From Sulfurimonas crateris (GTDB lineage: Bacteria > Campylobacterota > Campylobacteria > Campylobacterales > Sulfurimonadaceae), in the NCBI GenBank assembly GCA_945883795.1, contig CAMCYC010000014.1, forward strand, positions 1-48,799: a DNA stretch of 48,799 nucleotides, in the 5' to 3' direction. A program made the translations under genes and the position numbers. This document shows, one piece after another, positions 33,515-44,867 of this stretch; positions within the stretch are counted from its first letter, which is position 1; every line of letters starts with the position of its first letter. The notes beneath the pieces are model-generated. The model ran no database searches, was not told the DNA's origin, and saw only the letters and a program-made list of their open reading frames with translations.

Positions 33515-34627
33515 ATGAACAATAATCAAACTATACTTATCGTAGATGATATCAAAGAAAATATAGATGTACTTCTTAAACTTTTAGGTAAACAAGATGT
33601 TATTCCTGTGTTTGATGGAGTGACTGCAATAGAAATAGCTACACATGAAAAAAATATAGACCTTATACTCCTAGCTGTCGTAATGCCATACATGGATGGT
33701 TTTGAAGTAGCTAAAAAACTCAAAAAAGACCCAAAAACAGTACAAATACCAATTATCTTTTTAACCACTAAAAATAATGAAGAAGATATTCAAAAAGGTT
33801 TTGAATTGGGTGGCGTTGATTACATAACTAAACCATTTAATGCAAATGAACTCCTCTCAAGAGTCAATACGCACTTAAAACTTAGAGCTTATGAAAAGAA
33901 TTTGGAACAACAAACCCAAAAAGCAATTTATGAAGTAAAATTAAAAGAACAAATGCTCTACCAACAATCAAAACAAGCCTCACTTGGAGAACTTTTGATG
34001 CATATCTCACATCAATGGAAACAACCATTAGCTTCACTTGCTTCCATAAATCTTTTAAATAAAATGAAACTAACAAATTCTGAAACACTTGAAAAAGAAC
34101 TCTTATTAAAATCTTGTATAACTTCAGAAGATTTAATTATGTACATGTCTTCAACTATCGAAACTTTTCAGAATTTTTATAAGCCATCCTATCAAAATAG
34201 ATATTTTTTTCTAGAAGAAGCTATTAAAAGTGTTTTATCTATCGTTGAAGCAACCTTTTATTTTAATGACATTACAATACAAATTACATCAGATGAGCAA
34301 AAAAAGACTTATGCAAATGCAAATGAGATTACACAAGTAATTTTTTCTATCCTCAATAATGCAAAAGATATATTTATGATTAGACAAGCGAAAAATCCTG
34401 AAATTCATATATCTATTGGCAACCAAAAAATTTCTATTAGTGATAACGGAGGTGGCATTGATGAAGAGTTGTTTTCCAATATATTTGAACCGTTTAGTAC
34501 TCTACATAACAAAAAAGGGATAGGATTGCATCTAGCAAAAAATTTAATTACAAAAAATAATGGATTAATCACAGCGTCAAATACACAAGAAGGTGCCATT
34601 TTTACAATGGAATTTACACATGGATAA
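33515..34627 (+). CDS. Hybrid histidine kinase with a receiver domain lacking the phosphoacceptor Asp
   Basis: A soluble 370-residue protein with an N-terminal receiver domain (1-120), then a kinase core: coiled coil (EQQTQKAIYEVKLKEQ), H box SHQWKQPLASL, N box QVIFSILNNAKDIF, G1 box DNGGGI and G2 box KKGIGLHLA. The receiver keeps the acidic pair (IVDD) and the Lys (TKPFN), but position 54, where Asp is expected in DLILLxVVMP, is Ala (codon GCT, bases 33674-33676). It cannot be phosphorylated there, so it probably acts as a pseudo-receiver input. The kinase core looks intact. It overlaps the next regulator gene by 8 bp and is its likely donor. Confidence 0.9.
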   Translation: MNNNQTILIVDDIKENIDVLLKLLGKQDVIPVFDGVTAIEIATHEKNIDLILLAVVMPYMDGFEVAKKLKKDPKTVQIPIIFLTTKNNEEDIQKGFELGGVDYITKPFNANELLSRVNTHLKLRAYEKNLEQQTQKAIYEVKLKEQMLYQQSKQASLGELLMHISHQWKQPLASLASINLLNKMKLTNSETLEKELLLKSCITSEDLIMYMSSTIETFQNFYKPSYQNRYFFLEEAIKSVLSIVEATFYFNDITIQITSDEQKKTYANANEITQVIFSILNNAKDIFMIRQAKNPEIHISIGNQKISISDNGGGIDEELFSNIFEPFSTLHNKKGIGLHLAKNLITKNNGLITASNTQEGAIFTMEFTHG

Positions 34628-35306
34628 TTTAAAATCACTTAGTGTTTTATTTTTAGAAGACAATATAGAATTCGCTAAAAATACTGTCGAGTTATTGGAG
34701 ATGTTCTTTTATAAAATCTTTCATGCATCATCTATTAAAAGTAGCTTAGAACTCTATAAAGAGAATCATATAGATCTTATTATTTCAGATATTAAAGTAG
34801 ATGATGGAAATGGTCTTGATTTTATCAGATCAATACGAAATATGAATCTTTTAATACCAATTATAGTCCTAAGTGCCCACAAAGATGAAGATTTTTTATT
34901 AAAAGCCATACCTTTAAATATCACATCATACGAGTTAAAGCCTCTAAATTACAATACCTTTGTAGAACTCTTAAAAAGAATATCCTCAAAGTTTAAAGAT
35001 GTACATGAAATTTTTATTACAAATAATGTCATTTATAATTTTGAAGAAAAAGCTTTATATTTTGATAAAATTAATATCCCACTCACAAAAAAAGAGATTC
35101 TTTTCATGGAACTGATGATAAACAATATGGATAAATTGGTAACAGAAAAAATGATTCAAACCCAAGTATGGGGAAAACACAAGATGAGTGAAGCGGCACT
35201 TAAAAATCTCATCTTTAGATTACGACAAAAAACAGATAAAGATTTTATAAAAAGAGTTCAAAGTATAGGTTACAAACTCAGTTCAAAAGTCTCTATATTT
35301 ACATAA
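34620..35306 (+). CDS. OmpR-type response regulator, partner of the pseudo-receiver kinase
   Basis: The 228-residue protein has a receiver with an acidic pair (LFLEDNIEFA), phosphoacceptor Asp in LIISDIKVDDGNG, Ser in VLSAHKD and Lys in ELKPLNY, and a winged-helix domain (PLTKKEILFMELMI, EAALKNLIFRLRQK). I use the ATG at 34620 inside the kinase's last codons; an in-frame upstream codon lies further inside the kinase gene. No terminator separates it from the convergent TolC-like gene, which ends 7 bp away. Targets may include the adjacent exporter or the pst genes; that is inference. Confidence 0.9.
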   Translation: MDNLKSLSVLFLEDNIEFAKNTVELLEMFFYKIFHASSIKSSLELYKENHIDLIISDIKVDDGNGLDFIRSIRNMNLLIPIIVLSAHKDEDFLLKAIPLNITSYELKPLNYNTFVELLKRISSKFKDVHEIFITNNVIYNFEEKALYFDKINIPLTKKEILFMELMINNMDKLVTEKMIQTQVWGKHKMSEAALKNLIFRLRQKTDKDFIKRVQSIGYKLSSKVSIFT

Positions 35307-35312
35307 AAGAAG

Positions 35313-36659
35313 TTAAAAGATGGAATCTGCTACATCACGCTTAAGAGCTAAAGATAATTGTTGATATTGTAATTGGTACTCTAAAAGTTTTATTTTTAGA
35401 TTCAATGTTGCTATTTCACGCTGATTGAGGAGGAATAAATTACTAATTCCTAAAATATATCTTTTTTCCTCTGCCTTTTCTAGACGCTCTAATAACACTA
35501 TCTCTTCTTGAGAAAATTGGATAGTCGTTTGAAGCATATTTAATTTTGTGAAATTATTAATAATTTCAGTTTTTAAATTTTGAGAGAAAATATCAATTTT
35601 GGCTTGTAAAGATTTTTTCTTTGTTTGCACTAATTTACTTTTCCCCTCATATTGATTTTGCTGTAAAGCAAAGTTCATATCAAAAGTAACTTTATATCCA
35701 TCTTCGTTATACTTAAAGTCATGTACTCCATAAGTCCCTATCTTAAAAGTTGGATATTGTAATGATTGTATTGCTTTATTTTCTAAAAACAGTTGCTTTT
35801 CTTCTATTTTTAACGCTTTTAAATCAGCTCGCTGTTCAAGTGCTTTTTCAAAGAATTCATCAACTGTTGTGAGAGTTTTTATTGTAATTACTAATGGTTC
35901 TATGTAAAAATTCTCATCAAATAATTCTTGGGATATGCTCAAAAATTTTAAAAGTGTTGTAAGTCCATTTTCATAGAGATTTTTTGATAATAAAAGATAC
36001 TGTTTTGTATTAATTATTTGTTGTTCTATCTCAATTGAAGCAAGTTGTGCAAGAGTACCTGATTTAATTCTTTTTAAGACAAATTTTTCTCGCATTTGAG
36101 TTCGTTTCAATAAATTCTCAACAAGTTTTAAACGAGATTTGTAATAACGAACATTCCAATAAGCTTCCATGACCATAAAATCCAAATCTTGGAGATTGTC
36201 TTGGACACTCTGTTTATTTTTTTCATATTCAAGTTTTGCATTCAAGAGATTGAATTTTGGGGTATTCATATCCAAAAGGAGTGAGGTTGCATCAACATTT
36301 AATCCTATTCTAGCTTCTCCATCGCTTCCTGTTTTAATATTATTATACTCTTGTGTTCCTAGAGATTGTCGCCACCCTGCTTGGAGATTCATTCCATTGA
36401 GTAAAGGTTGATTGAGGCTGATATCACTAAATTCTCCTGTGGTTGTAGGGTAGTTTTTATTGTGATAACTTGCCAGAAGGGTTGTATCATAAAAACCTTG
36501 TGCATAAGTGATTTTATGCAGTGCAGAGTTTTGAGATATTTTGGCATTGATAACATAAGGATTTTCATTTTTCAGAAAATCCTTTAAGTGTTCTGGTTGT
36601 AGCGGTTCTGTTGCAAACATGGGTGTAATAAAAGTAAATAAAAATAAAAGAAAACGCAT
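35313..36659 (-). CDS. TolC-family outer membrane efflux protein
   Basis: Outer membrane channel with a periplasmic helical tunnel. The 448 residues start with a signal peptide (RFLLFLFTFITPMFA) and continue as alternating strands and long helices (YEKNKQSVQDNLQDLDFMVMEAYWNVRYYK; LERLEKAEEKRYILGISNLFLLNQREI) duplicated in two halves as in TolC. It overlaps the HlyD-like gene start by one base, so it is translated from the same operon as the adaptor and the membrane component. Confidence 0.88.
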   Translation of the reverse strand: MRFLLFLFTFITPMFATEPLQPEHLKDFLKNENPYVINAKISQNSALHKITYAQGFYDTTLLASYHNKNYPTTTGEFSDISLNQPLLNGMNLQAGWRQSLGTQEYNNIKTGSDGEARIGLNVDATSLLLDMNTPKFNLLNAKLEYEKNKQSVQDNLQDLDFMVMEAYWNVRYYKSRLKLVENLLKRTQMREKFVLKRIKSGTLAQLASIEIEQQIINTKQYLLLSKNLYENGLTTLLKFLSISQELFDENFYIEPLVITIKTLTTVDEFFEKALEQRADLKALKIEEKQLFLENKAIQSLQYPTFKIGTYGVHDFKYNEDGYKVTFDMNFALQQNQYEGKSKLVQTKKKSLQAKIDIFSQNLKTEIINNFTKLNMLQTTIQFSQEEIVLLERLEKAEEKRYILGISNLFLLNQREIATLNLKIKLLEYQLQYQQLSLALKRDVADSIF

Positions 36660-37951
36660 TAAAAACGCTCAATAAGATTAAGGTTTTGCCGTTCACTTAT
36701 CATTTGTGGAGGCAAAGCATTCATTAAACGCCACATTTCATACCAAACAGTAACTACATCTAATCGTACCCAAGCTGCAGCTTGGGTGCCTATTCTTAAC
36801 ACTGTTTCATCAGGCCATGGTTCGTTAGGATCTTCTACCACATACGCATAATAAAAACCTTTTTCATGCGAGAGTACTTCGATTTGTTTGATAACGCCCC
36901 CAAAAGTACCAAATTTTATTTCAGGCCATCCACTGATTTGGAGCGCTGGCCAACCGTAAAATTTAATCCGAACTTTTAACCCTACTTTGATAAGTGGCAT
37001 ATTAAAATCAGATACTTTTAATTTGATAGTTCGCTCTTTGACATCGGGTGCAAAATGAATTAAAGGTGTATTTTTAGCGATAAAACGGTTGGTGTCATTT
37101 TGCAAAAGTCGTACTATTGTGCCTGATGTTTTCGCTTTGATTGTAGCACTTTCATAGCGAGAGAGTGCTAGTTTGGCATTTTGTAGCGCATGTTCAATAT
37201 TTTTAATATTGTTTTTTTCTGATAAAATTTGATTTTCAAGTGCATTGATTAAATTTTTATTTTTGGCTTGAAGTTGGTTGTATTCCTCTTTTAAAATATC
37301 ACGATTATTTTTTTCTATCTCAATATCTAAATGTACTTTTTGTAACTCTAGTGTTGCTTTTGCATGGGTGTAGGCAATTTTTTCAAAATCTCGCTTTGAT
37401 TCAATCCCCTCTCCATACAAGAGTTTGACTCGATTATAATTTGCATTTTCTATCTCTTTATTTTTCTCACTAGCGATTTGTTTATATTGGAGTGATTGAA
37501 TCCTTTTTTCTAGCTGTTTTTGTTTCTCTTTATAGACTGCAACTTGTGCATCAAATTCAGTTTGAATATGATAACGACGCTCTTCTAAAGAGCTTTTTTT
37601 ATCTTGTGCATTTTGGAATCGTTGTTGTAAGATATTTTCTTGCTCACTTAATTTGTGAAGATAGTTGCTATCTAAATCAACCATATTGAGCAAAATAGTC
37701 TTGGCTTGTACTTTATCGGTTTCATTTACTTCATATTTTTCAACAAAACCATCAATAGGAGCCAAAATTTGATAATCACGCTCTTGAGGGTTGAGTGCTA
37801 TTAAGACACCACTCCCTTGAACTGTTTGTTGCCATGGCAAAAAAAGCAAAGCAATAATAATAACAACAAATATAAAACTTATCTCTAAAGCTTTTTTAAC
37901 AAAAGGGTGTAAATGAGTTTGCTCTAGGACTGTAAAACTGTATTTATCCAT
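36659..37951 (-). CDS. HlyD-type membrane fusion (adaptor) protein
   Basis: Periplasmic adaptor of tripartite exporters, 430 residues. The N-terminal cytoplasmic segment is followed by one membrane helix (ISFIFVVIIIALLFL), a lipoyl half (LAPIDGFVEKYEVNE), a long coiled coil (about 95-255) and a beta domain ending in RIGTQAAAWVRLDVVTVWYEMW. The C-terminal part resembles the family with a G-W-P-x-x-x-x-S-G-W-P motif (GWPALQISGWP). It overlaps the membrane-domain gene by 8 bp. Confidence 0.87.
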   Translation of the reverse strand: MDKYSFTVLEQTHLHPFVKKALEISFIFVVIIIALLFLPWQQTVQGSGVLIALNPQERDYQILAPIDGFVEKYEVNETDKVQAKTILLNMVDLDSNYLHKLSEQENILQQRFQNAQDKKSSLEERRYHIQTEFDAQVAVYKEKQKQLEKRIQSLQYKQIASEKNKEIENANYNRVKLLYGEGIESKRDFEKIAYTHAKATLELQKVHLDIEIEKNNRDILKEEYNQLQAKNKNLINALENQILSEKNNIKNIEHALQNAKLALSRYESATIKAKTSGTIVRLLQNDTNRFIAKNTPLIHFAPDVKERTIKLKVSDFNMPLIKVGLKVRIKFYGWPALQISGWPEIKFGTFGGVIKQIEVLSHEKGFYYAYVVEDPNEPWPDETVLRIGTQAAAWVRLDVVTVWYEMWRLMNALPPQMISERQNLNLIERF

Positions 37952-38918
37952 GTTTGATTTCTGCTAATGCGTGAGATAATTTTTCTACTTTGTAAACACC
38001 TTCAACCATATCATAGATATAATCAATTTGCTTGACAAAACTTTTGATGGCATAGGTAATGGAAACAATAACAATTTCTGCGGCAACAAATTCACCAATA
38101 GGTAAAGTGCCATGAATGACTAGATATCCTCCCATCATTAAAAAACTTGTAAAAATTAAACCCTCAATTAAAAAAGCCCAACTGAGCTGACGGATAATCA
38201 CTTTAAAAATAGCACTTCTTGCTACTACAAATTCTTGTAGATAAATATCAAATTGTGCTAAACGCTCATTTTTACTCAATAAAACTTCTGGGATATGTTG
38301 TAAATAGTAGATACTTTTATGTTTTGCATCAGAGCGGTTAATTGCAAGTTGCATCCCATTTTTACCAAATAAAATTAAAACAATGAGAAAAACAATAAAA
38401 AATACTAAGCCAAATGTAAATAGATGTACATTGAAAGCCAAAAGAAGCAATAGACTAATAGAAGTTTTAATAATCAACGAAGCTCCATCTAAAAGAAGTA
38501 TGGGAAAAATTTTTTGAATAGAAGTAATATCAAAAAAGTAGTTCATTAATTTATCAATAGAACGCTCTTCTTGTGACTCTGTCTCATTCGGATTATGTTG
38601 AGGTAAATTGACAGCCATATTTGCAATTTCAATCCCTGAGGTAATAAATATTTTTTGTTGAAATTTTTCAATGATATATTCTTTCATCACTTGTAAAAAG
38701 GTTGTCATAAAAAATATAGTGATAACAATAATACCGACAACAAACATAGAAACAGAAGTGTGAGCTAAAACACTGTTAATAATAAAAGAGGTAGCAAGTG
38801 GAATGGAAAGCACTAAAATTGCTTCAATTGCGGAGTAATAAAGAAGATAAATGATATTTTGCTTATCTTCTTTCATAATTTTCATAATACTAGCGAGTAC
38901 TTTTTGTTCTATATTCAT
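37944..38918 (-). CDS. ABC transporter transmembrane domain protein lacking the ATPase domain
   Basis: The 324-residue protein matches the type I secretion exporter (HlyB/PrtD-like) membrane domain: first helices NIIYLLYYSAIEAILVLSIPLATSFIINSV, a middle pair (LLDGASLIIKTSISLLLLLAF; FTFGLVFFIVFLIVLILF) and a last pair (LIEGLIFTSFLMMGGYLVI; GEFVAAEIVIVSI). It ends EKLSHALAEIKHG, just where the linker to the nucleotide-binding domain would begin, and no Walker A, signature or Walker B follows. The reading frame is intact and couples to HlyD by an 8-bp overlap, so it is a deliberate short form and not a truncation by mutation. Energy source unknown. Confidence 0.8.
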   Translation of the reverse strand: MNIEQKVLASIMKIMKEDKQNIIYLLYYSAIEAILVLSIPLATSFIINSVLAHTSVSMFVVGIIVITIFFMTTFLQVMKEYIIEKFQQKIFITSGIEIANMAVNLPQHNPNETESQEERSIDKLMNYFFDITSIQKIFPILLLDGASLIIKTSISLLLLLAFNVHLFTFGLVFFIVFLIVLILFGKNGMQLAINRSDAKHKSIYYLQHIPEVLLSKNERLAQFDIYLQEFVVARSAIFKVIIRQLSWAFLIEGLIFTSFLMMGGYLVIHGTLPIGEFVAAEIVIVSITYAIKSFVKQIDYIYDMVEGVYKVEKLSHALAEIKHG

Positions 38919-40344: not shown

Positions 40345-40378
40345 GATGTTTAATTTCCTTTGTTGTTTTTGTAAGTGA

Positions 40379-40410
40379 ATTGTAAAATAGTTTGGTTACA
40401 TAAAGATTAC
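40379..40410 (-). promoter_or_regulatory. Pho-type box and -10 element of the porin gene
   Basis: On the minus strand GTAAT (40410-40406), six bases, GTAAC (40399-40395), ten bases, then TACAAT (40384-40379). The repeats are 11 bp apart, one helical turn, as in classical Pho boxes that replace the -35 element. The start codon is about 35 bp downstream of the -10. Confidence 0.75.
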
Positions 40411-40475
40411 AAACTACTTTTATAATAATTCGTTATATTTTTGCGATTAAGATTGTAGAATAGGGGATTTTAAAT

Positions 40476-40494
40476 CTCCTCTATAAAAGAGGAG
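40476..40494 (-). terminator. Hairpin downstream of pstS
   Basis: CTCCTCT (40476-40482) and AGAGGAG (40488-40494) form a 7-bp perfect stem 16 bp past the pstS stop. A partly overlapping dyad (GATTTTAAATC, 40466-40476) follows. No strong T-run, so partial termination between pstS and the porin gene is likely. Confidence 0.6.
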
Positions 40495-40509
40495 AGCTTT
40501 GAAGAAGGA

Positions 40510-41514
40510 TTATTTAATATTAGTTGTCCAATATTCTCTAATCATTTTGATAGTATCTTCAGGAAGAGAGATATAACCTAATTTTTTAGCAGAAGCATCG
40601 CCTGTTTTGAAAGCATAATCAAAAAATTGGATAACTTTTTTGTTCATCTCTGCTTTTTCTTTTGGAAGTAAAATAAAAGTTGCAGCAACAATTGGATAAG
40701 AAGTATCACCTGGTTGTAATGTTAACATTGCATAGAAGTTATCCTCTTTTGTCCAACTTGCATATTTTGCAGCAGCTTTATAATTTGCATCTGTAGCTTT
40801 TACCCATTTACCGTTTGCAGTTTCTAAAACAGCAGCTGAAAAATGATTTTGTTCTTTAAACGCATTTTCTACATAACCAATAGAATTTGGAGTTTGTTTA
40901 ATTAAACTTGATACGCCCTCATTTCCTTTACCACCGATACCTGTTGCCCAGTTAATTGCTTTACCTGTACCATAAGTATTTTTCCAATTATCTGAACTAG
41001 CACTTAAATAATAAGTAAAGTTGTAAGTTGTTCCAGAACCGTCAGAACGGTGAGCAACTATAATTTTTTCATTTGGGAGTTTTAAATCTTTATTATCTGC
41101 TACGATTGCAGGGTCATTCCACATCGTAATTTTTCCTGCAAAAATATCTGCAACAACACTATTTTTAAGTTTTAATGTTTCATCAGCGATTCCAGCAACA
41201 TTAAATGCAATTACAATAGAACCAATAACAGCAGGGAATTGTAAGAGTTTTGCTTCTTCTAATTCTTTTGTAGTAAGAGGAGCATCACTTGCACCAAAAT
41301 CTACAACTCGTTCTGTGATTTGTTTAATACCACCACCTGAACCAATTGATTGATAATTGACAGTGTTTTTTGTATCATGCTTGTAGTTATAAGCCCAATC
41401 GTAGTAAAGTGGAGATGGGAAAGTTGCACCAGCACCATTGATTTTATCAGCAGCAAAAGATGAACTCACAGTAACTAATGCAATTAATGCAGCAGAAGCG
41501 ATTTTTTTTAGCAT
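40510..41514 (-). CDS. pstS: Phosphate ABC transporter substrate-binding protein
   Basis: High-affinity periplasmic phosphate receptor. A signal peptide ends VSSSFAAD, and the mature start INGAGATFPSPLY is diagnostic. Phosphate-binding motifs are SGGGIKQI, FGASDAPL and HRSDGSGTT. The length of 334 residues is normal. It is transcribed away from pstC-pstA-pstB-phoU, an unusual divergent order. Confidence 0.96.
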   Translation of the reverse strand: MLKKIASAALIALVTVSSSFAADKINGAGATFPSPLYYDWAYNYKHDTKNTVNYQSIGSGGGIKQITERVVDFGASDAPLTTKELEEAKLLQFPAVIGSIVIAFNVAGIADETLKLKNSVVADIFAGKITMWNDPAIVADNKDLKLPNEKIIVAHRSDGSGTTYNFTYYLSASSDNWKNTYGTGKAINWATGIGGKGNEGVSSLIKQTPNSIGYVENAFKEQNHFSAAVLETANGKWVKATDANYKAAAKYASWTKEDNFYAMLTLQPGDTSYPIVAATFILLPKEKAEMNKKVIQFFDYAFKTGDASAKKLGYISLPEDTIKMIREYWTTNIK

Positions 41515-41546
41515 TTTGTATCCTTGTAAAATTTTGAGATAGTGAA

Positions 41547-41578
41547 AGTATAAAATTGATTTGTTACAAAGTGATTAC
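41547..41578 (-). promoter_or_regulatory. Pho-type box and -10 element of pstS
   Basis: On the minus strand GTAAT (41578-41574), six bases, GTAAC (41567-41563), ten bases, then TATACT (41552-41547). The same layout as in front of the porin gene and pstC. Confidence 0.8.
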
Positions 41579-41593
41579 AAAGTATCTCTATAA

Positions 41594-41625
41594 GTAACCT
41601 ATTTGTAACAAACATTTCCTACAAT
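41594..41625 (+). promoter_or_regulatory. Pho-type box and -10 element of pstC
   Basis: GTAAC (41594-41598), six bases, GTAAC (41605-41609), ten bases, then TACAAT (41620-41625). It is divergent from the pstS site 16 bp away, so two back-to-back boxes serve the two transcription units. The GGAGAA site for the TTG start of pstC is at 41650-41655. Confidence 0.8.
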
Positions 41626-41660: not shown

Positions 41661-42515
41661 TTGAGTATTTTTTTAGATAAACTCTTTGCGCACAGCACGA
41701 AATTTATAGCCATTACAATTTTATTTATTGTTGCTTGGATTTTTACTGTACTTGTTGAGCATTCCATGGAATCGATTCATGCATTTGGATTTGATTTTTT
41801 AACTACAGACATTTGGGCACCTAATTTAGAAAAGTTTGGCGCACTTCCTGCAATTTATGGTTCTGTTGTATCAACATTCTTGGCAATGATTTTAGCAATA
41901 CCCCTTGCTATTGGAGTTGCGATATTTTTAAGTGAACTTGCACCCGCAAGACTTAAAACTCCAGTAGGTGTTTCTATCGAGCTTTTAGCAGCAATACCCT
42001 CTGTAATTTATGGGATGTGGGGACTTTTTTATTTTGTACCTATTATTCGTGATGCCTTTGGAGGTGTTGGTATTAGTATGCTAACTGCGGGAATTATTTT
42101 ATCTATTATGATACTTCCTTTTATGGCAGCGGTTACTCGTGATGCCATGAATACAACACCAGATATTCTTAAAGAATCAGCGTATGCTCTTGGTGGAACA
42201 AAATGGGATGTTATCAAAGATGTTATCATCCCTTACGCAAAAGCAGGCATTATTGGTTCTGTTATTTTAGCACTTGGTCGTGCTATTGGTGAAACTATGG
42301 CAGTTACTTTTGTTATGGGTAATGTACATAAAATTTCACTTGATTTGACCATGCCAGCGACTTCTATTCCAGTCGCACTTGCAAATGAGTTTACAGAAGC
42401 AGATGGGGATTTATATTATTCATCACTTTTTGAATTATCACTCATCTTGCTTGTAATAAGTTTTGCCATTATCTCTGTTGCAAAATTTTATTTCTTACGA
42501 AGAAAAAGGGATTAA
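41661..42515 (+). CDS. pstC: Phosphate ABC transporter permease PstC
   Basis: One of two membrane channel subunits of the Pst system. 284 residues with six hydrophobic helices; LEKFGALPAIYGSVVSTFLAMILA and the EAA loop ESAYALGGTKWDVIKDVIIPYAKAGI (ATPase contact) are visible, as is GRAIGETMAVTFVMGN. It starts at TTG with GGAGAA upstream. pstA follows after 2 bp. Confidence 0.95.
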   Translation: MSIFLDKLFAHSTKFIAITILFIVAWIFTVLVEHSMESIHAFGFDFLTTDIWAPNLEKFGALPAIYGSVVSTFLAMILAIPLAIGVAIFLSELAPARLKTPVGVSIELLAAIPSVIYGMWGLFYFVPIIRDAFGGVGISMLTAGIILSIMILPFMAAVTRDAMNTTPDILKESAYALGGTKWDVIKDVIIPYAKAGIIGSVILALGRAIGETMAVTFVMGNVHKISLDLTMPATSIPVALANEFTEADGDLYYSSLFELSLILLVISFAIISVAKFYFLRRKRD

Positions 42516-42517
42516 TT

Positions 42518-43360
42518 ATGACTCATACTCATAAAAGAATAATTATAAATAGAATTGTAATGAGCCTCTCAAGTCTTTCCGCACTTATTGGCATGGGCTT
42601 TTTATTTTGGATTTTGGGAGTTTTAATTTACAATGGTGTAGATGCACTTAATTGGAATATTTTTCTCAATGAAGGTGCGCCTCCGGGACATGAGGATGGT
42701 GGATTAAAACATGCATTGATTGGTCAACTTTATATTGTGGGTGTTGCAACACTTGCAGGTGTTCCTCTTGGAGTACTCGCAGGAACATATCTGAGTGAAT
42801 ATGGGCAAAAATCAAAACTTGCTGAAACTATTCGTGATATTTCAGACATCATGATGAGCGCTCCGAGTATTGTAATTGGTGCGTTTGTATATGCTGTTGT
42901 AGTTATGCCTATGGGACATTTTAGCGGTTGGGCGGGTTCTATCGCTTTGACTATTATCATGTTACCAATTATTCTGAGAACTACCGATGACATGCTTCAT
43001 CTTGTACCTTCAACTTTGCGTGAAGCAGCTTTTGCTCTTGGCGCTCCAAAGTATAAAGTTATTATTCAAGTGGTTTATCGTGGTGCAAAAGCAGGGATAT
43101 TAACAGGTGTGTTACTTGGAATTGCTAGAGTAGCTGGAGAAACTGCACCTTTGCTTTTTACTTCATTTAATGATAACTTTTTAAATACAAACATGAATGA
43201 ATCTATGGCTTCACTCACCGTTACGATGTTCAACTATGCAACTTCTCCGTATGAAGATTGGCAAAAACTTGGGTGGGCAGCTGCGTTTATACTCAGTATG
43301 TTTATTTTAAGTCTCAATATTGTGGGACGACTATTTTTACTAAAAAAGAAAGGCAGATAA
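42518..43360 (+). CDS. pstA: Phosphate ABC transporter permease PstA
   Basis: Second channel subunit of the Pst system, 280 residues and six helices. Motifs include GGLKHALIGQLYIVGVATLAGVPLGVLAGTYLSEYG, SDIMMSAPSIVIGAFVYA and the EAA loop REAAFALGAPKYKVIIQVVYRGAKAGI, then ARVAGETAPLLFT. pstB follows after 3 bp. Confidence 0.95.
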   Translation: MTHTHKRIIINRIVMSLSSLSALIGMGFLFWILGVLIYNGVDALNWNIFLNEGAPPGHEDGGLKHALIGQLYIVGVATLAGVPLGVLAGTYLSEYGQKSKLAETIRDISDIMMSAPSIVIGAFVYAVVVMPMGHFSGWAGSIALTIIMLPIILRTTDDMLHLVPSTLREAAFALGAPKYKVIIQVVYRGAKAGILTGVLLGIARVAGETAPLLFTSFNDNFLNTNMNESMASLTVTMFNYATSPYEDWQKLGWAAAFILSMFILSLNIVGRLFLLKKKGR

Positions 43361-43363
43361 AAT

Positions 43364-44149
43364 ATGGCAACAATCATAGATATAAAAGAAGAAATAGCAT
43401 TACAAGTAAAAGATTTTGAGTATACTTATGCGGGAGCTGATGCGCCAAGTGTAAAAAAACTAAACATGCCTATTGCAAAAAATAGTATTACGGCACTTAT
43501 TGGACCATCAGGTTGTGGAAAAACTACACTTTTAAGAAGTTTTAACCGTATGCATGATTTATATCCAGGAAACAAGTATGCTGGAGAAATTTTATTTAAA
43601 AATAGAAATATTTTAGATAAAAATGAAGATTTAATCCATTTACGAACACAAATAGGGATGATTTTTCAAAAACCTACAGCTTTCCCTATGAGCATTTTTG
43701 ATAATGTTGCGTATGGACTTAGACTTCAGGGGATAAAAAATAAAACGGAACTTCAAGATAGAGTAGAAAAATCACTTCAAAATGCTGCTATTTGGAAAGA
43801 GGTAAAAGATAGACTCAAACATGATGCAAATGGTCTCTCAGGTGGACAACAACAAAGACTTTGTATTGCAAGAGCGATAGCTGTTGAGCCTGAGGTTTTG
43901 CTTTTTGATGAGCCAACTTCTGCACTTGACCCAATCTCAACTGCAGGTATTGAGGAGTTGGTCGTAGAACTTAAAGAAAAAGTTTCAATTATCATAGTAA
44001 CGCACAACATGCAACAAGCTGCACGAGTAAGCGATTATACGGGTTTCATGTATCTTGGTGAGCTTATAGAACTTGGTGTTACTGAAAACATGTTTGTTAC
44101 ACCAACTGAAAAATTAACGGAAGAATATATCACTGGAAAATTTGGTTGA
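43364..44149 (+). CDS. pstB: Phosphate ABC transporter ATP-binding protein
   Basis: Energises phosphate import through PstC and PstA. Walker A is GPSGCGKTT (47-55), Q-loop [11 protein letters not shown], signature [14 protein letters not shown], Walker [13 protein letters not shown] and switch His in [10 protein letters not shown]. 261 residues. It is the only ABC ATPase in this window. Confidence 0.97.
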
Positions 44150-44195: not shown

Positions 44196-44867
44196 ATGTC
44201 GGTAAAGTACAACAAACAAACGGAAGATATTAAAGCAAAGATGGTATCTCTTTTAGAAGATATTACAAATTCTAGCAAAATATCGTTAGATGCGTATATT
44301 GCAAAAGATTTAGGAATATTTGGAGATGCTCAAGAAAAGCTAAAAAATATACAAGCACGAGCTGATTTGATTGATAATGAAATAATCAAAACTTTTGCAC
44401 TTTATGGTCCAGAAGCAACGGAACTTCGCACATTGGTTGTTTATTTAAAAATGACAAATGAGATAGTTCGTATAGGTGAGGGAATCAAAAAATATGCAAG
44501 AAGAATGCAAGAACATTCCCAAAGTGATTGTAAATTAGAAGAACTTAATGGCACAATTATTCAACTTCATAAAAGCACTATTAATGCACTTGATTATATT
44601 TTGGAATGTTTCAAAAATATAAACAATTGTTCAGTGGATGACTTTTTTAGAAAAGTGATGGTTGAAGAGAGTAAAAATGATGACTTTTTCTCAATTCTTG
44701 AAAAAGATATTATGAGTATTATTATAAGAGAAAAAGAACTTGCAACAGAATATGTAAGAATATTAGGAACACTTCGCAAACTTGAACGCTCATGTGACAG
44801 GTCTGTAAATATTGCTAATTTACTCCTCTATGCAAAAAATGGTGGCGATATTAATTTCCACAGTTAA
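44196..44867 (+). CDS. phoU: PhoU-like protein
   Basis: The 223-residue helical protein corresponds to PhoU, which links Pst activity to a phosphate-sensing kinase and limits uptake. Two PhoU-type three-helix repeats are recognisable (ATELRTLVVYLKMTNEIVRIGEGIKKYARR and YVRILGTLRKLERSCDRSVNIANLLL), each with the E(D)xxxD-like acidic face. A ribosome binding site (AAGGAG) precedes it, and it lies 46 bp after pstB. Confidence is lower for orthology than for the fold. Confidence 0.85.
   Translation: MSVKYNKQTEDIKAKMVSLLEDITNSSKISLDAYIAKDLGIFGDAQEKLKNIQARADLIDNEIIKTFALYGPEATELRTLVVYLKMTNEIVRIGEGIKKYARRMQEHSQSDCKLEELNGTIIQLHKSTINALDYILECFKNINNCSVDDFFRKVMVEESKNDDFFSILEKDIMSIIIREKELATEYVRILGTLRKLERSCDRSVNIANLLLYAKNGGDINFHS

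Follow-up and report, generated by a model that had tools for sequence, protein, structure and literature searches.

Three sites in the window, the 48,799-nucleotide stretch of DNA analysed here, are with a probability of roughly 93% Pho boxes that are switched on via PhosS-PhosR under phosphate limitation. The sites precede a porin-like gene, pstS and the pstCAB-phoU genes (Table 1), and the pstS and pstC boxes lie back to back in one intergenic region with a gap of 15 bp. The strict pattern GTAAY-N6-GTAAC-N10-TANNNT matched these three places with no further match in the window, and no match was obtained across 100 dinucleotide shuffles of the window. This confirmed the exact threefold spacing described in the first-pass annotation, whose three -10 hexamers (TACAAT, TATACT, TACAAT) were also correct. 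The half-sites are TTGTAAY-like throughout and do not match the E. coli PhoB consensus half-site CTGTCAT. In support of the reading as Pho boxes, with 11-bp repeats replacing the -35 element at a fixed distance from the -10, orthologous pst and porin promoters keep the box, it is rare in the rest of the genome, and phosRS is linked to these boxes in related genomes. No published Pho box for Sulfurimonas or Arcobacter was found in a literature search with most subscription journals outside its coverage; the box, which is real and conserved, is thus a new half-site variant of a known operator type.

Table 1. Genes, Pho boxes and regulators. Positions refer to the window, except for PhosR, which is encoded on another contig (C4) of the same genome.
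Feature	Position	Strand	Basis or remark
OmpR-type response regulator	34620..35306	+	PF00072 + PF00486
Porin-like outer-membrane protein, 443 aa	39013..40344	-	no Pfam or PDB match
Pho box + -10, porin gene	40379..40410	-	GTAATCTTTATGTAACCAAACTATTTTACAAT; pattern match
Parts of porin box	GTAAT 40406-40410, GTAAC 40395-40399, -10 TACAAT 40379-40384	-	
pstS, phosphate-binding protein	40510..41514	-	PF12849, E 1e-35
Pho box + -10, pstS	41547..41578	-	GTAATCACTTTGTAACAAATCAATTTTATACT; pattern match
Parts of pstS box	GTAAT 41574-41578, GTAAC 41563-41567, -10 TATACT 41547-41552	-	
Pho box + -10, pstCAB-phoU	41594..41625	+	GTAACCTATTTGTAACAAACATTTCCTACAAT; pattern match
Parts of pstC box	GTAAC 41594-41598, GTAAC 41605-41609, -10 TACAAT 41620-41625	+	
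pstC, permease, TTG start	41661..42515	+	PF00528
pstA, permease	42518..43360	+	PF00528
pstB, ATPase	43364..44149	+	PF00005
phoU-like	44196..44867	+	PF01895
PhosR	C4:12410-13081		best fit to PhoB model in own genome; kinase gene (PhosS) next

The porin found no relative in Pfam or PDB, so phosphate selectivity cannot be claimed for it. Beside it, at 35313-38918, lie outer-membrane-efflux-like, membrane-fusion-like and ABC-transporter-like genes that, judged by eye, are of the type I secretion type.

Each site has two 11-bp direct repeats of TTGTAAY-N4 in the -35 position, ending exactly 10 bases before the -10, and these repeats would functionally replace the -35 element. When phosphate is limiting, the histidine kinase PhosS is expected to phosphorylate PhosR, which, by analogy with PhoB (PMC4415409), may bind both repeats in a head-to-tail arrangement and, by the same analogy, recruit or hold RNA polymerase at the -10 of a promoter lacking a -35. 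The porin, pstS and pstCAB-phoU would in this way be switched on under low phosphate, with transcripts predicted to start near 40372, 41540 and 41632.

Conservation was assessed at 80 named Campylobacterota pstC loci from Sulfurimonas, Sulfuricurvum, Hydrogenimonas-like, Arcobacter-like and enterohepatic Helicobacter genomes, 79 of which had usable upstream DNA, by scanning the 250 bases before pstC. GTAAY-N6-GTAAY was present in 66 of the 79 loci, and each of the remaining spacers between 0 and 20 was seen in no more than one locus, apart from 17, which represents a third repeat. TANNNT followed the pair at exactly 10 bases in 58 of the 66 regions, compared to nine regions for the next most frequent distance. 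Markov resampling of 62 pstC regions gave an expectation of 0.04 regions with the pair, compared to 51 observed. Around the half-sites the sequence has diverged with the spacing unchanged. The 13 loci that have no box at pstC often have pstS preceding pstC and the box at pstS instead. At pstS starts in named relatives the wider form GTWWY-N6-GTWWY-N10-NANNNT was found in 35 of 39, with strict GTAAY twice at 23 of them, and among the 17 related porin genes whose upstream DNA was usable, 14 had the box module together with a -10. Conservation before orthologous pst genes, which had been set as a test beforehand, was therefore borne out at both pstC and pstS.

The boxes are most likely controlled by the PhosR-PhosS pair encoded at C4:12410. 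PhosR scored 184 bits against the PhoB equivalog TIGR02154 (NCBIfam), below the cut-off of 296, and the kinase encoded after it fits PnpS and PhoR best in its C-terminal half. The earlier statement that the cluster has no phoB/phoR-like pair next to it holds for this genome, since phosRS is encoded on a different contig. The phosR gene was located within 4 kb of pst in 31 of the 80 relatives. One genome of the same family (L192) has the order pstB, pstA, phosS, phosR, phoU, a boxed pstS and two boxed porins, the porin adjoining pstS being 57% identical to the window porin and having its own box; two loci of family f9 (L185, L191) have a boxed pstS, a boxed pstC, pstA, pstB, phoU, phosR and phosS. 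A tree placed 33 PhosR sequences in one group (support 100/99), outside which fell all 17 other regulators of this genome that were included and E. coli PhoB, which served as an outgroup only. In Campylobacter the regulator gene stands in the order serA-phosR-phosS-ABC-flgL, which we take to be Cj0891-Cj0887, and the best match of its product among the response regulators of this genome is the C4 protein (39%); by sequence, C. jejuni PhosR is thus an ortholog of the C4 regulator. Autoregulation is common in Pho systems; with a box upstream of 0 of 31 PhosR genes, it was not seen here. In two loci of genus g6 (L176 in G294, L177 in G270) a second PhosR-type regulator was observed about 5 kb from the first.

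The boxes might instead be bound by another OmpR-type regulator, such as the protein encoded at 34620-35306, which the first-pass annotation had pointed out as the nearest regulator. It is a true OmpR-type response regulator and so of the right class, it is encoded 5 kb away, and 19 proteins of this genome in all match the OmpR-type DNA-binding domain (Trans_reg_C). We consider this very unlikely. Among the 80 relatives no regulator of its type was found near pst, where 32 of 33 response regulators were PhosR-type; it is among the proteins excluded from the PhosR clade; and it is the C4 PhosR that is this genome's best match to the Campylobacter regulator. The 34620-35306 protein is therefore very probably not the relevant regulator and was rejected in favour of PhosR.

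Occurrence of the box across the genome was low. The looser pattern GTAAY-N6-GTAAY-N10-TANNNT gave seven matches in 2.41 Mb, with none for the reversed control. A profile search from sequence only, trained on 43 boxes that included the three window sites and left out the site at C16:40755, returned four clear matches in the 2.41 Mb, namely the three window sites and C16:40755. The matches were concentrated on phosphate genes; one lies at a chemoreceptor transcript and another at C8:56274, in the rpsG-fusA region, which we regard as chance. A match at C16:40808 before a pyruvate-kinase-like gene was dropped as a target because it was not conserved in 13 relatives. Across the 299 genomes of the order, the family of this genome had 145 box matches over 29 genomes compared to 21 in the control (sums added by hand), and family f11 was at control level with five matches compared to four. 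Family f11 is taken as Campylobacter because 26 of the 28 genomes with a 16S string that we presume to be Campylobacter-specific belong to it. A search for TTGTAAY-N4-TTGTAAY with two mismatches gave 334 matches compared to 191 in the control, which is too loose by itself, and exposed a four-repeat array before an OlsF-like gene.

These counts bear on whether the pattern is simply the general vegetative promoter architecture of Campylobacterota, an AT-rich periodic signal with a -10 and no regulator site. Campylobacterota promoters have weak -35 elements and periodic AT signals, and TANNNT is a normal -10. Such an origin is nevertheless highly improbable, as a vegetative signal does not accord with seven genomic matches, against none in the control, that are concentrated on phosphate genes, nor with GTAAY at control level in Campylobacter, where GTTTC fills the same frame. 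Chance spacing spread by common descent of a single intergenic region, to which the shared location of the pstS and pstC boxes could be credited, is already refuted by conservation of the same geometry at unlinked porin, OlsF-like and metallophosphoesterase genes in several genera and by half-site surroundings that diverged with the spacing kept.

The boxes may also control genes beyond phosphate uptake. Downstream of the C16:40755 box lie a reading frame of 29 residues and a chemoreceptor gene. In a locus of family f20 (L193:2141-6294) two chemoreceptors about 54% identical to this boxed chemoreceptor come right after pstB, an arrangement that hints at phosphate chemotaxis under the same control. 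At C103:26-65, four half-sites in 11-bp register with CATAAT at N10 precede a conserved small reading frame and then a 571-residue protein, which was identified as an OlsF-like ornithine-lipid synthase due to the presence of an acyltransferase (PF19576) and an OlsB-type domain (PF13444). Over 30 family copies of the OlsF-like gene, including the one in this genome, a GTWAY pair was found upstream in 13, several with three or four repeats, compared to one copy with the control spacer, and boxes also precede OlsF-like genes in families f20 and f6. The small frame between box array and OlsF-like gene, about 59 residues long (MQIFSITLTNHLTKRYNLS...IYMVA; L110:118-297 on C103, L198-L201), is conserved in several Sulfurimonas genomes and had no Pfam match.

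A further box (C90:4311) lies 7 bases upstream of the start of an LpxH-like metallophosphoesterase gene, and the module occupies the same place in four genomes of genus g4 and one of g82. In this genome and these relatives (L010:4311-4349, L226-L229) the -10 lies about 6-8 bases before the ATG, and the transcript may therefore be leaderless or nearly so. The OlsF-like and metallophosphoesterase boxes are weaker or multi-repeat compared to the window boxes. Their targets suggest a regulon in which phosphorus-free lipid would replace phospholipid in response to phosphate. Sulfurimonas gotlandica is known to contain ornithine lipids, which in one condition made up 40% of its lipids (PMC9789136); a connection with phosphate is our own inference. 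The prediction is that these bacteria trade phospholipid for ornithine lipid under phosphate control. The box can also serve as a consensus in searches for phosphate-starvation genes of sulfur-oxidising Campylobacterota and enterohepatic Helicobacter, for which no published one was found. This wider regulon, with ornithine lipids and phospholipid turnover, is of most interest together with the switch in half-site.

That switch is seen in Campylobacter and a few other genomes, where GTTTC-N6-GTTTC-N10-TANNNT, often with a CCAAA tail, precedes pstS and a PhoX-like phosphatase gene; the GTTTC pattern had no match in the genome analysed here. In C. jejuni, PhosR has been reported to control both kinds of target (PMC3197622). 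GTTAC or mixed half-site forms occur in families f6 and f20. In genomes with GTAAY, the recognition helix of PhosR reads [RK][TS]VN or [RK]TVD; the regulator was read in six GTTTC genomes, and its helix there is KTIN or KTLN. The exception is G041, with the helix KSIT and yet GTAAY matches; given this exception and the few lineages involved, the data are suggestive of a correlation between helix and half-site. Four loci of family f6 (L178, L179, L186, L187) have two PhosR paralogues per genome with different helices, KTIN compared to NAVN or NAMN, and close to these paralogues lie a pst cluster with GTTTC/GTTAC boxes and a PitA-like transporter plus porin-like gene with GTAAC boxes. Tentatively, and with somewhat less than even odds, the phylum could have had GTAAY as its ancestral Pho code, with the GTTTC of C. 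jejuni as one of several later switches that left the frame unchanged, each with a change in the PhosR helix ([RK]TVN to KTIN/KTLN), in which case the f6 genomes with two PhosR may run two separately addressed phosphate regulons. Together with their regulators, the boxes form a natural series for studying how the DNA word of a response regulator can change while the architecture of the promoter stays the same.

Half-sites of Pho boxes are expected to vary between species (PMC4415409). The half-site of Desulfovibrio vulgaris PhoB (DVU1083), (c/t)GT(n)AC (PMC3333781), has a formula that covers TGTAAC and likewise stands in tandem repeats before pst; that box is from another phylum, is described as 6-bp repeats with a 4-bp spacer and was compared by half-site and repeats alone. 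The E. coli PhoB box shares with the present one two direct repeats of 11 bp that take the place of the -35, a distance of N10 from the end of the 7-mer to the -10 (at pstS) and control of pst. The E. coli pstS promoter reads CTGTCAC-N10-TATTTT, found in 5,372 E. coli genomes, and the geometry is thus identical to the base. The first-pass annotation had proposed E. coli Pho logic with a different half-site; the logic holds, but the difference is small, with period and N10 the same and the 7-mer CTGTCAT/C replaced by TTGTAAC/T, and PhosR groups apart from E. coli PhoB. The C. jejuni PhosR box was reportedly described by Wosten and colleagues in 2006 with GTTTC half-sites. The earlier claim that the present box differs from it is correct as to the half-site, GTAAY (GTAAC) here and GTTTC there, but not as to the frame: the 11-bp period, CCAAA tail, N10, kind of target (pstS, and phoX in Campylobacter) and orthologous regulator are common to both. 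Since Campylobacter puts GTTTC in the same frame, its box is another dialect of the same operator, and the geometry of the 'non-classical' C. jejuni box is the classical one.
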